The translations under genes and the position numbers were made by a program. From Natrinema salinisoli (GTDB lineage Archaea > Halobacteriota > Halobacteria > Halobacteriales > Natrialbaceae): a stretch of DNA of 64,000 nt. This document shows, piece by piece, positions 25,591-29,997 of the stretch (within the stretch, counting starts at the first letter, position 1; each line of letters begins with the position of its first letter). Where the stretch lies: NCBI RefSeq assembly GCF_020405205.1, contig NZ_CP084469.1:1240001-1304000 (forward strand), read 5' to 3'. The notes below the pieces were generated by a model that saw only the letters and a program-made list of their open reading frames with translations, did no database searches and had not been told where the DNA came from.

Positions 25591-26310
25591 ATGACGTCAC
25601 CAAACGTGGATCCCGAACCGGAATTCGTCTACGACACCGACCGGGTGCGCGACTTCGTCGACACGGTCAAAGAAACAGCGAACGAACACGACGAGATTCC
25701 GGCGTTGCTCAAGGCACTGTCTGAACCCTTCGAGGCGCTCCTGGCGGACGACGACTGGCTCGACGAGCGATATCAACGGCTTCCCGCCGACGACGAGGAG
25801 GACAGCGGCAATATGGGCGACGATATCGCGCAGTGGCTGTTGTACCGGGAGGGGAACAAACTGTCGTTGTTCACCCTCGTCCTGCCGCCTGGTGCGTCGA
25901 CGCCGGTGCACGATCATCTGGCGTGGGGACTCGTCGGAATCTACGGGGGGACCCAGCGGGAGGATTTCTATCGTCGCGTCGACGACGGGACCACTGACGA
26001 GGGCGAGGCGGAACTCGAGCGAATCCGGACGGATCGGATGGAACGAGGAGATTACTACGAACTGGTTCCGCCGAACAACGACATTCACTCGGTGGAGACG
26101 ACGTCGGACGAACCCAGCGTGAGCGTCCACCTGCTCGGAGCGGACGTCGGCTGCATCGAACGGCACGCGTTCGACGCCGACGGTGGGACGGTCGAGCTCT
26201 TCCACTCGGGATACACGAACGTCGCGTGCGACGACGTACTGGACACACCGGCGGTCGGTCATGGACACCATGATGCGGACGACCACCGACACGACCACGT
26301 TCATGACTGA
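25591..26310 (+). CDS. Cupin-fold cysteine dioxygenase-like protein with His-rich tail
   Basis: The 239-residue protein resembles the cysteine dioxygenase/PF05995-type cupins. PPGASTPVHDHLAWGLVGIYGG gives the H-x-H iron site (about residues 109-111), REDFYRRVD follows, and ELVPPNNDIHSVE gives the third His. Family members oxidise thiols such as cysteine or 3-mercaptopropionate with Fe(II) and O2. The last 20 residues contain eight or so His residues mixed with Asp, which could bind metal and is unusual. A TATA-like CATATACG stretch lies directly before the ATG. It is the last gene before the AT-rich repeat region. Confidence 0.82.
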   Translation: MTSPNVDPEPEFVYDTDRVRDFVDTVKETANEHDEIPALLKALSEPFEALLADDDWLDERYQRLPADDEEDSGNMGDDIAQWLLYREGNKLSLFTLVLPPGASTPVHDHLAWGLVGIYGGTQREDFYRRVDDGTTDEGEAELERIRTDRMERGDYYELVPPNNDIHSVETTSDEPSVSVHLLGADVGCIERHAFDADGGTVELFHSGYTNVACDDVLDTPAVGHGHHDADDHRHDHVHD

Positions 26311-26495
26311 AGAGTGACTGGGACGGTAGTGGACTAGCTCTGTACCACTATCGTCACGAATCGTAACTGGTCGGATCAGCAAAGCTACTCGCTGGTGTTC
26401 CGTCTTTTCGAACGGGGATGATGCCTCGGGTAGACTGCCTGAGTATGCGTGCAATCGGTCTCATAGCTATTCCGTGGTTCCGTGCGAGCGGTGCA

Positions 26496-27109
26496 ATTAG
26501 GCTATGTGGTTGGGCTGTTTGGTTAGGCTATTCGAATGGCTATTCATCATTGCTGTGTTGGTCAGTAAAGCGAGCGTATCCGAACGCTTCCTTGGTGTGA
26601 TTTCTTACGGAACACTACCGAGCCATCCATCTTGTTAGCCCCTTTGTTTAGCCTATTTAGTTAGTCCAATCAGTTAGGTCTTCTTTTAGGCATACTTGTG
26701 TGGGGAGCGAAAATTCGCGGGTTCCGACTCACTAATTAGGCTGGCTAGTTAGGCTAATCAAATGACCTAACTAAACTAGCTATCTAATTATGTTGTCTAG
26801 TAGAACTGTACGGTTGATCTAGTGAAATAGTTCGAATATGTAGGCGAGCCGCCCAAGTCGACTGCTCGAGTGCACCCTCAGTCTAATCCGCTTCCCATCC
26901 ACAGGTTAGATTGTCTATACATACTATTCAGTTAGGCTAACTAGGTAGGCTATTCAATCCCCTATCTCTTCATGCGGGATTAGAATCGATCTCGAGCAGC
27001 TAACCCCCACAGCAACACGAATACCAAACCAGTCGATTAGCCTATTCGGTTAGGCCAACTGAAATTCCTACTCGGTACATGTGGTGAAGTATTATATTCG
27101 GGAAGGCTA
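26496..27109. repeat. Phased nonamer array (consensus RTTAGGCTA), candidate parS/origin
   Basis: The gap 26311-27119 has no convincing gene and is AT-rich. It contains clusters of nonamers related to GTTAGGCTA with starts at 26496, 26509, 26522 and 26534; 26634, 26647, 26660, 26673 and 26685; 26735 and 26748 (with an inverted copy at 26763-26771); 26905, 26931 and 26944; 27036 and 27049; and 27101. Within clusters the step is 13 bp, occasionally 12, and 26905 to 26931 is two steps. The last unit lies between a TATA-like box and the ATG of the ParA-like gene. Such an array next to ParA is expected for a partition centromere that also represses the par promoter; iterons of an origin are the other reading. 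Confidence 0.75.
27090..27098 (+). promoter_or_regulatory. TATA-like box of the ParA-like gene
   Basis: TATTATATT is centred about 26 bp before the ATG at 27120, as in leaderless haloarchaeal promoters. The last array nonamer (27101-27109) sits just downstream of it, so a bound partner protein would block transcription. Confidence 0.6.
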
Positions 27110-27119
27110 ACCCATACGC

Positions 27120-27962
27120 ATGCTCACGTACACGACGTACTCGGAGGCCGGCGGCGTCGGGAAATCGACGATCGGCGCGGCGTTGCTCGAGTCCCACGCG
27201 AACCACGGGCTCGACGTCCTCGCGATCGATATGGACCAGCAGAACGGGTCGCTCACCTATCTCCTCGATATCGACGCACCCCGTGACGACAGTCAAGCGG
27301 ATAATATCGTTCGCCACCTGATCGATCGACCGAAAGGCCCACTCGAGGATCTCATCTACCAAACGGAGTACGGCTTCGACCTCATCCCCAGTCACAATAT
27401 GCTCGAGAGCCTCGAAGATCTCCTCAACCGCGCACAGCAGATGGCCGACGATCTCGGCGAGGGTGACGACTTCGACCCGTACGACCGCCTCCGACAGGTA
27501 CTCCTCGAGTCCAGCGTTCCACAGGAGTACGACGTCCTCGTCGTCGATCCGCCGGCGACGGCGGGCCCGCATCTCTACAACGCCGTCTCGGCCACCCGAA
27601 GTCTGGTGATCCCGGTCGAGCCGACTGGCAAGGGAATGCAAAGCGTTCTGGGATTGGAAGAGCTGGTCGACGGGCTCCAGGAGCGACTGGAAGCCGAAAT
27701 CGGTGTTCTCTCGGCCGTTCCGAACGGCATCGGTAGGACGTCCGACCAGGACAGATATCTGACCGAAATTCGGGATCGGGGCTATCCCGCGCCGGTCGCG
27801 ATCCGCGAGCGATCGTCGCTCTTCGAAGGCTGCTGGGACCAGCAGTGTACACCGCGATACTACGTCGCGAAACACCGCGACCGACGACGCGATCACGAGA
27901 GCGAAACGCTCGACAAAATCGACCGACTGGCGACCGAAATCGAGGAGGTGAGTGAGGAATGA
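27120..27962 (+). CDS. ParA-family partition ATPase
   Basis: The 280-residue protein has the deviant Walker A motif EAGGVGKSTIGAALL (residues 9-23) with the signature Lys, the Walker A' region LAIDMDQQNGSLTYLL, and a Walker B-like VLVVDPPATAGPHLYNA. It lacks the N-terminal HTH of large plasmid ParA proteins, so it is a small SegA/Soj-like form. ParA ATPases bind DNA non-specifically in the ATP state and move replicon copies through a centromere-binding partner. The next gene overlaps it by 4 bp and should be that partner. The array upstream is the expected target. Confidence 0.88.
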   Translation: MLTYTTYSEAGGVGKSTIGAALLESHANHGLDVLAIDMDQQNGSLTYLLDIDAPRDDSQADNIVRHLIDRPKGPLEDLIYQTEYGFDLIPSHNMLESLEDLLNRAQQMADDLGEGDDFDPYDRLRQVLLESSVPQEYDVLVVDPPATAGPHLYNAVSATRSLVIPVEPTGKGMQSVLGLEELVDGLQERLEAEIGVLSAVPNGIGRTSDQDRYLTEIRDRGYPAPVAIRERSSLFEGCWDQQCTPRYYVAKHRDRRRDHESETLDKIDRLATEIEEVSEE

Positions 27963-28429
27963 AGAAGGGATCCGGTAGCGATCCGTTCGCGGATGTGCGA
28001 GACGAAGACGATGACGCGGGTGAAGCGTCACAGCCCGACGACGAATTGGATACCGAACCGCCTCGCTCTGATACCGAGGACGGGACGGCTCGAGGGGAAA
28101 CCGCCGATGACGGTGGTCAAACCGCTAGCAGTGAAGATCGGTCGACCGAGGCGATCGTCGGGGAGCCGCCACAGGACGGTGCTACCGATAGCGGCGTTCC
28201 GTGGGTCTACGTTCGAGATAACGTCAAACAGGACCGCGAAATGGTCCAGTTCTATCTCCGGGATTTCATGCTCGAAGCGGAGGACGAGTTCGTCGATGCA
28301 GTTGGCGACGAACTCGGGACCGACGTTTCGAAGACCGACGTCCGGGAGGCGGCCTACGAAGCGGCGATGCACAACGTCGACGAAGTCGTCGACCGACTCG
28401 AAGCGTGGGGGTTCGAATCGGTCGACTGA
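27959..28429 (+). CDS. Acidic ParA-linked protein, candidate centromere-binding partner
   Basis: The 156-residue protein overlaps the ParA stop by 4 bp. Residues 1-75 are low-complexity and rich in Asp, Glu, Gly and Ser, with no fold expected. Residues 77-156 are compact: PWVYVRDNVKQDREMVQFYLRD, then EDEFVDAVGDELG, then TDVREAAYEAAMHNVDEVVDRLEAWGF. The family is unknown to me. By position it is a ParB/SegB-like adaptor whose C-terminal domain could bind the nonamers, and whose acidic tail could stimulate the ATPase. No ribbon-helix-helix or HTH motif is obvious, so DNA binding is inferred only. Confidence 0.72.
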   Translation: MKKGSGSDPFADVRDEDDDAGEASQPDDELDTEPPRSDTEDGTARGETADDGGQTASSEDRSTEAIVGEPPQDGATDSGVPWVYVRDNVKQDREMVQFYLRDFMLEAEDEFVDAVGDELGTDVSKTDVREAAYEAAMHNVDEVVDRLEAWGFESVD

Positions 28430-28856
28430 TCACCCGACTCCGATCTCGAATCGGACGTAGTGGGAAAGACGCTACTGTAGACGGAGACAGGAATCGGGTA
28501 GAAAACAGCTCGATTCGATCGAAGATCTGTTTTTCGATCTGCATCACTGGTACTAATCTCAGTGAGTCGCCGAGATCGTTGTTACCACGACCGGAACCAA
28601 GGATTTGGAGGGGATTTGAACCAGTTCCCGCTCACTGGTTTGTCGAAACCACGCATCACAGTCCCGTTGCGTCCCTCTAGTCACACCCAGTACCGAGCAA
28701 CATTCTATATAGCCATATGTGATTTATGTGTGCGCTGCTAGCGTGCTACCGGTATTTTTCTCGGATTCCACCGAATTAGCCGTAGAGTCGAACACTTGAC
28801 CGGCTCGATAATCAAATACGGCTCTATCAGACTCCGTACCCCGTGGATCCCGACCG
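28430..28856. other. Intergenic, no gene seen
   Basis: Between the partition genes and the decayed integrase the six frames hold only short, poorly coding stretches. GGATTTGAACC at 28612-28622 resembles the complement of a tRNA T-loop but its flanks do not pair, so no tRNA is called. Confidence 0.6.
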
Positions 28857-29997
28857 ATGGAACAGCAGAAACTCGACTCTCGAGGCCGATCGATCGTGAC
28901 ATCCGAAACGACACCGGTCGCTAGTTCACTCGAGGAACTCCTTCGATCGAAATCGAAGGGCGGTGGGGAAAGTGGGAACTGTCGGCGAAATTTCGAGCAT
29001 TGTGTCGACGCCTTCCTCGAATGGCTCGAGGCAGACTTCCAGTCGGGGAAACGTTCGACGACCCGGACGAACGAACGTTCCGATGGTACGCCCGCGACCC
29101 CTAGGGGTTTCGCCCCGGAAACGGTTCAGACTATTGCGTGCTGGTCAGTCCTATCGGTTGGTGCGTTCGTGAGGGGTTCCTTGAGGCGAACACGCACAGC
29201 TACCGTTGCGAAGGAAACACTTCCCGAAAACGATGGGCGCCGATCGGGGGATCGGCAGGCCTGGACCGACGAACACCGGCTGTTGATCACATGTCACGTC
29301 GATTCACTCGCCTACGATGCTGCCGATGGGTACGGCTGGGTGCGATCAACGGGTTACCGAACGCTCGTCTCCGTCCTGTGCTGTTCCCGTATCCGCGGGG
29401 ACGAAATTTTCGCTGATCCGGAAGCCAATCGCTGTACTGGACTCCGGTGGACTGACGTCTCCTTCGCGGACGGGACGAAGGCCGTCCTCTCGAGAAGCAA
29501 GACTGATTCGATCGCTCACTGACGGAGTGGTGATAAACCAAATACGGCGATACAAAGAATCGTTCAATCCTCCCCCCGATGACTAACCATGTTTTCGACG
29601 TTTCATCTCCCAACGCTCTACGAAACGCTTCGACGGGACTACAGAACGAATACATGTGGTAACTGGAAAAATCGAGACGTTCGTCGTGGTTGCGCTGGCG
29701 AAATCGAAATCTTCGGTGACCGTCGTGAGTACGAACTGATGTTACCTTCCTCGATACTGACGGCGTCGGCGGATCCCGCGTCGACTCTGTGCAGATGCAG
29801 GTCTCACGCCCGATGGAAAACACGATTATCTCGCGCCACACGGTAGACAGCGTGGCACTGGTGAAGTACTGTCTCGACGACAGGGCTTCACTGCAGCTGC
29901 CCGTCTCTTAGACAATAGCGAAGCGGTCGTTCGAACGTCCGATTCTCGTATCGAAGCGAAAGAGATGCGACGTGGGTTCTCTCTACTTCGACACTGA
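28857..29997 (+). pseudogene. Decayed tyrosine recombinase/integrase-like gene
   Basis: Pieces of one protein appear in order in different frames. Frame 28857 starts SLEELLRSKSKGGGESGN and holds VDAFLEWLEAD; a second frame holds DDPDERTFRWYARDP and then, after a stop, GWCVREGFLEAN; the original frame resumes with KETLPENDGRRSGDRQAWTDEH and LVSVLCCSRIRGDEIFADPEANRCTGLRWTDVS, stopping at 29520. Further pieces follow: FPTFHLPTLYETLRRDYRT near 29600, DAGLTPDGKHDYLAPHGRQRGTGE near 29795, and QGFTAAARLLDNSEAVVR ending in TGA at 29995-29997. The RIRG-E-F and later H-x-x-R-G-like pattern are those of lambda-integrase-type recombinases, so I read it as an integrase broken by several frameshifts and stops. 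It presumably belonged to the element carrying the ParA genes. Confidence 0.72.

Follow-up and report, generated by a model that had tools for sequence, protein, structure and literature searches.

The stretch of DNA analysed here (hereafter the window) comprises 64,000 nucleotides of Natrinema salinisoli, C1:1240001-1304000 of a 4.19-Mb contig. It contains a gap of 809 bp (26311-27119) bounded by a cysteine-dioxygenase-like ORF (25591-26310) and by a parA gene, which is followed by an overlapping gene coding for a small partner protein (Table 1). The gap holds an array of short sites arranged in clusters of 2-4, with steps mostly of exactly 13 bp, and with clusters spaced about 50-130 bp apart. 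An initial annotation of this DNA described the gap as an AT-rich region of 800 bp; with 53% AT overall it is AT-rich only relative to its left side, which has 62-66% GC.

Table 1. Coordinates of the array, promoter elements, and genes of the putative partition cassette (window positions)
Feature	Position	Strand	Basis and remarks
Site cluster 1	26494..26546	.	Sites 26494, 26509, 26520 and weak 26534; motif and mismatch scans
Site cluster 2	26634..26683	.	Sites 26634, 26647, 26660, 26673 at 13-bp steps; mismatch and motif scans, repeat search
Site cluster 3	26733..26773	.	Sites 26735, 26748 (perfect TTAGGCTAA), 26761 at 13-bp steps; mismatch and motif scans
Site cluster 4	26905..26956	.	Weak 26905; 26929 (perfect GTTAGGCTAAC), 26944; mismatch and motif scans
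Site cluster 5	27036..27059	.	Two sites, 13-bp step; mismatch and motif scans, promoter alignment
TATA-box-like element TATTATATTC of parA promoter	27089..27098	+	Read directly; alignment of 25 promoters
Operator-type site CGGGAAGGCTAAC between TATA box and start codon	27099..27111	+	Promoter alignment, motif scan (site 27102)
parA, 280 aa, ParA/Soj-type ATPase without N-terminal HTH	27120..27962	+	PF13614, PHROG, alignments
Partner gene, 156 aa, proposed centromere-binding protein	27959..28429	+	4-nt overlap with parA stop; from sequence and structural model

At every position where the initial annotation placed a nonamer, one finds the nonamer or a degenerate copy of it, the weak members being 26673, 26905, and the copy at 26509. 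Its estimate of about 17 copies was fair, since the motif scan counts 19. Allowing at most one mismatch to TTAGGCTAA, there are seven sites in the gap and none elsewhere in the 64 kb; allowing two, there are 13 sites, versus 2.5 expected from dinucleotide shuffles. The family motif, learned from 25 related loci that include the window itself, identifies its 19 sites in the gap, against an expectation of 0.9 derived from the remainder of the window. The self-match of the array at lag 13 is 0.373, above the maximum of 1,000 dinucleotide shuffles (0.304), and none of the 1,000 shuffles attains 0.373 at any lag between 5 and 59. The presence in the window of an array with the 13-bp phasing noticed initially is confirmed. 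As a unit, GTTAGnCTAAC (learned motif cagTTAGnCTAac) is an odd palindrome. Hence, "forward" and "reverse" copies are one and the same site, and orientation has no meaning.

The parA product matches PF13614 in Pfam (1.2e-16) and the ParA-like family in PHROG (5.5e-28), and, like the ATPases of type Ib partition systems, it is a ParA-family protein lacking an N-terminal HTH domain. It does not contain the deviant Walker A motif KGGxxK[ST] of that type. Its Walker A is SEAGGVGKS (residues 8-16), and alignment to the QKGGVGKT of Soj places an alanine at the position of the signature lysine. Nearly all relatives of this ParA have E-A-G-G-V-G-K, and the copy on contig C3 of the same genome has S-G-G-T-F-K (SESGGTFKT). 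Another lysine, K171 in PVEPTGKG, is invariant in the alignment of the family. In a gap-free alignment with McdA (construct 6noo) it falls after Walker B, opposite construct residue 171, which would be residue 151 of McdA itself provided that the construct is offset by 20. In McdA, the lysine at this position presumably stands in for the signature lysine. Type 1 McdA is devoid of the latter (PMC8262871).

The partner protein starts with MKKGSGSDPF, followed by an acidic linker predicted to be disordered and by a C-terminal domain (residues 79-156). This description draws also on an alignment of 66 relatives. The initial peptide MKxGxGxDPF, coded at 27959-27988, is nearly invariant (K2, G4, P9, F10); its location ahead of the acidic disordered linker makes it a candidate ParA-contact motif. 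The sequence has no matches in Pfam, where a ribbon-helix-helix (RHH) family was looked for, in NCBIfam above cut-off, in PHROGs, or in the PDB, and profile searches return only chance matches. The AlphaFold model of the C-terminal domain (78 residues, pLDDT 93) shows an extended segment and then three helices, which is the topology of an RHH monomer with one additional helix. Foldseek with this domain gives no significant match to a known DNA-binding protein. It does list the RHH proteins VapB (5x3t), ParD (8c24), and NikA (2ba3), all with E > 1, and the fold search with the full-length protein is degraded by the disordered N-terminus. The RHH fold is considered likely for the modelled domain. 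The structure of SegB, the partner of the archaeal SegAB system, is absent both from the PDB profile matches (E <= 10) and from the fold matches, and the two proteins may share a distant common origin. In the plasmid collection, 92 records contain a relative of the partner; among the matches listed, the organism names are haloarchaeal, and the proteins are mostly annotated as "hypothetical protein" beside ParA. In the ParA loci surveyed, the partner gene lies directly 3′ of parA, usually overlapping it. The partner family is undescribed so far.

Array, ParA, and the overlapping gene of the 156-aa partner also co-occur on megaplasmids of Natrinema and Natrialba, where the relatives at 85-92% identity each have an array upstream. 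A blind search for the pattern TTAGnCTA-N5-TTAGnCTA finds it in 23 of the 125 genomes of the family, and the reversed control finds it in none. The ParA subfamily (E <= 1e-100) is present in 34 of the 125, and all 23 genomes with the exact 13-bp pair are among these 34 (Fisher p = 3.8e-17), which is the enrichment near related parA genes that the initial annotation had put forward as a check. Scattered copies of the perfect palindrome alone do not clearly outnumber the reversed-pattern control in every genome. Among the 37 places with a 13-bp pair, 25 precede this parA by no more than 2.5 kb, 10 are elsewhere on the contig carrying parA, and two are on other contigs of draft genomes. Some sites on the same contig are 4-235 kb away from parA, and these count against a centromere, because a simple one does not require them. 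In the closest relatives, the sister species (L020) excepted, DNA homology to the window starts between 27037 and 27091 and ends near 28430. Beyond the promoter-proximal sites the upstream DNA of these relatives cannot be aligned, yet the sites and their phasing are kept. Hence, the upstream sites have been retained while the surrounding DNA turned over.

The array ends with a site at 27102, placed after TATTATATTC and before the ATG at 27120, as initially annotated, and the order TATA box, site ([GA]A[GA][AG]CTAAC), ATG is kept in 18 of the 25 loci of this class, which predicts autorepression. One might then regard the whole array as a long operator, by which the partner would repress parA and a few other genes of the replicon and which would have no role as a centromere; the lone site pairs found in other intergenic regions of the replicon go in the same direction. 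One or two sites would be enough for such a function, yet the phased sites kept upstream span 0.4-1.2 kb across loci. Moreover, in plasmids of the pHH406 type of Haloarcula the array follows the partner gene, and in the present genome a distal pair of sites (see following) lies between converging genes with no obvious promoter. An exclusively regulatory role is therefore improbable.

The 13-bp step extends well beyond this ParA subfamily. Of 95 haloarchaeal ParA loci, 83 have a higher value at lag 13 than at any of 11 control lags, and about 12 have no period above the controls. When all lags from 7 to 45 are scanned, 68 of 94 loci peak at 13, 26, or 39; among the 18 loci whose ParAs are more than 25% different, 12 do so. 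The mean peak z at these three lags is 4.9, 4.2, and 4.1, respectively, and it is at most 3.0 at every other lag. The unit, on the other hand, varies with the class of the partner, as defined by grouping the proteins by their presumed ribbon strand: TTAGnCTAA goes with QFYLR, TCTtAGA with QLHLQ, tgTTCAtT with PLFL, and ACAGAnnTCTGT with EAHLR, these motifs coming from an unsupervised search with a limited number of sites. Each class motif scores best on its own arrays. Those of QLHLQ, PLFL, and EAHLR are nearly exclusive, and several classes of the TAG/CTA type cross-match; these scores are descriptive, because the motifs were learned from the same loci. As unit and partner class both follow phylogeny, their association is no independent proof of contact, and it is consistent with the unit being read directly by the strand of the partner. 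Judging from the loci compared, the 13-bp step is older than the sequence of the unit, and what is new is the conservation of the step across haloarchaea while the unit changes, together with the undescribed family of the partner. To speak of a centromere of a new kind, as was done initially, is too strong, because the combination of a ParA with a small partner that binds DNA and with phased sites is a known layout.

Natrinema salinisoli itself provides an example of this diversity, as C1, C2, and C3 each carry a cassette, and the units of the three differ. The C2 unit at 13-bp step is confined to the flanks of the C2 cassette, on both sides, and the C3 pattern ACAGAnnTCTGT is too strict to serve as a search pattern. 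On the C2 megaplasmid, TCTTAGA arrays with 13-bp step precede parA and also follow the partner gene (L016:1769-1801). Three units in one cell are difficult to reconcile with the proposal of a host nucleoid protein binding the sites, since a single such protein would not read all three. In a variant of this proposal ParA itself would be the DNA-binding protein, and in both the partner would be merely accessory. ParA is the best-conserved element of the cassette, and the partner has no recognised DNA-binding domain, which would fit; but type Ia repressors have an N-terminal HTH that is missing from this ParA, whose Walker A starts at residue 8. Binding of the sites by either protein in place of the partner is thus very improbable.

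The initial annotation also considered the array a possible origin of replication. Phased repeats in a relatively AT-rich gap are what one would expect of an iteron-type origin, and there are plasmids where an initiator gene is not far: orc1/cdc6 is 1.7 kb upstream of parA in pNPA200 of Natrinema pallidum and about 14-17 kb away in pNVE414. However, the array of the window is not located beside an initiator gene of its own, as iterons are. The window contains neither orc1/cdc6 nor any other replication gene, and the nearest orc1/cdc6 on C1 is 306 kb away (1573269). Most related arrays have no orc nearby, the array tracks parA irrespective of the presence of orc, and the unit changes with the partner of ParA and not with a Rep protein. 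The origin has accordingly been rejected as the main role, and we consider that reading highly unlikely.

The genomic setting differs from that of the related cassettes, which are on megaplasmids. From 62-66% on the left, the GC content drops to 52-60% near the array (26300 onward) and is mostly lower from there on to the window's end, and metabolic genes of the left flank correspond to parts of plasmids that carry parA in N. caseinilyticum and N. gelatinilyticum. An old integration of a megaplasmid into C1 is the simplest reading of these sequence data. An ORF at 28857 was examined as a possible integrase remnant and was not confirmed as such. Because it lies on a 4.19-Mb contig and not on a plasmid, the cassette may be a relic of the integrated megaplasmid, either nonfunctional or domesticated, which would be compatible with a centromere role of its relatives elsewhere. 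The drop in GC at the array and the plasmid-like left flank would agree with this, but parA and the partner gene are intact, the sister species (98% ParA identity) retains the cassette together with its surroundings, and the cassette is also retained, with the same distal pair at 53 kb, in another genome with a 98%-identical ParA. A remnant is rather unlikely.

The distal pair just mentioned is made of perfect sites and stands alone, 52.6 kb upstream of parA (L130:8482-8504, C1:1214482-1214504), flanked by the 3′ ends of two genes, one for an SDR and the other for an archaea-specific SMC-related protein (ASRP, NF045487). In the close relative with the 98%-identical ParA (G069) a lone pair is found at nearly equal distance (about 53 kb). 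Lone pairs also occur on other parA-bearing megaplasmids, pNVE414 and pNMAG01 (L134, L133, L132), one of them near orc1/cdc6. A single regulated gene common to all distant pairs was considered and rejected, as the neighbours differ between replicons: ASRP in the present genome, a peptidase and an acetyltransferase in pNMAG01, and orc1 and a TPP enzyme, or a zinc-ribbon and a hypothetical protein, in pNVE414.

In conclusion, we interpret 26494-27111 as a parS centromere that doubles as operator, within a haloarchaeal partition cassette of the order parS-parA-partner. It would be bound by the partner, and we give this reading a probability of roughly 0.78. The reading is based on the array, its phasing, the co-occurrence with parA and the partner gene, the joint change of unit and partner class, the conservation of the promoter site, and the predicted fold of the partner; binding by the partner, stimulation of the ATPase, segregation, and repression are what we infer from these observations. 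Of the initial proposal of a centromere or origin, the centromere with autoregulation is well supported by the comparison of genomes, and the origin is not supported. In the mechanism that we envisage, dimers of the partner would bind GTTAGnCTAAC through a two-stranded ribbon (MVQFYLRD), and adjacent dimers at 13-bp steps would pack side by side, forming clusters. The MKxGxGxDPF peptide, on its flexible acidic tether, would then touch DNA-bound ParA-ATP and elicit hydrolysis, by which the plasmid would be moved or positioned over the nucleoid. Partner in excess would fill the site between the TATA box and the ATG, turning off parA and its own gene, and the sequence of the unit would provide the specificity that allows several such replicons to coexist in one cell.

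Haloarchaea have many copies of the chromosome and several megaplasmids per cell. For the inheritance of such secondary replicons, the present finding names a probable centromere and a probable binding protein. The rule of a 13-bp step with plasmid-specific letters can be read from the sequence, and it is applicable to species in standard laboratory use, among them Halobacterium salinarum (pHS2), Haloarcula hispanica (pHH406), and several species of Haloferax. It would supply markers for incompatibility groups of archaeal plasmids and add a second natural case of a ParA functioning without the usual signature lysine. With about even odds, the cassettes may together represent a haloarchaea-wide and undescribed segregation machine for secondary replicons, made of a ParA without signature lysine, a new RHH family marked by a fixed MKxGxGxDPF peptide for contact with ParA, and centromeres constant only in their 13-bp step. 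A few residues of the strand would read the letters of the palindrome, which would then act as the incompatibility code under which several megaplasmids coexist in a cell.

No description of these 13-bp arrays was found in the open-licence literature, and several known systems resemble the cassette in part. The type Ib ParABS systems have an RHH ParB, as in delta/omega of pSM19035 (PMC9499535) and ParF/ParG of TP228. They share with the cassette a short ParA without HTH, a small partner (whose DNA binding is only predicted here), an array of short units overlapping the parA promoter, as is found in the window, and a disordered N-terminus on a strand-helix-helix core, which here is a prediction. 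They differ by contiguous nonpalindromic heptads of 7 bp, whereas the cassette has a palindrome at 13-bp steps in clusters separated by gaps, a partner without detectable sequence relation to theirs, and a ParA lacking the signature lysine. SegB of Sulfolobales reads an odd palindrome of 13 bp, TCTAGASTCTAGA (TCTAGA-S-TCTAGA), upstream of segA (PMC12284271). SegAB thus shares with the cassette an archaeal ParA with an RHH partner (predicted in our case) and an odd palindrome near the ParA gene with further sites scattered along the replicon. In SegAB, however, the palindrome itself measures 13 bp, whereas here a palindrome of 11 bp and of other sequence recurs at a step of 13 bp; SegB sites are mostly single and inside chromosomal genes, in contrast to the dense phased arrays found here mostly on megaplasmids; and the PDB profile searches with our partner gave no SegB match. 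AspA-ParB-ParA of the Sulfolobus plasmid pNOB8, with a winged-helix AspA, a single palindrome of 23 bp, and ParB as third protein (PMC5120986), is likewise a partition system of an archaeal plasmid with a palindromic centromere upstream, but it has three proteins and one palindrome where the cassette has two proteins and an array. The HTH-type ParABS systems (parS/Spo0J) differ in that their partner is a CTPase with a ParB domain, the 156-aa partner having no Pfam or PHROG match. The carboxysome-positioning McdA of type 1 shares with the cassette a ParA-family ATPase without signature lysine, yet it acts through McdB, has no DNA array, and contains a mid-protein extension (PMC8262871). Because of the missing signature lysine and the lack of homology of the partner to SegB or to ParG/omega, the cassette is filed in neither type Ib nor SegAB; by analogy, the best explanation is that it works like type Ib partition (delta/omega) or archaeal SegAB.
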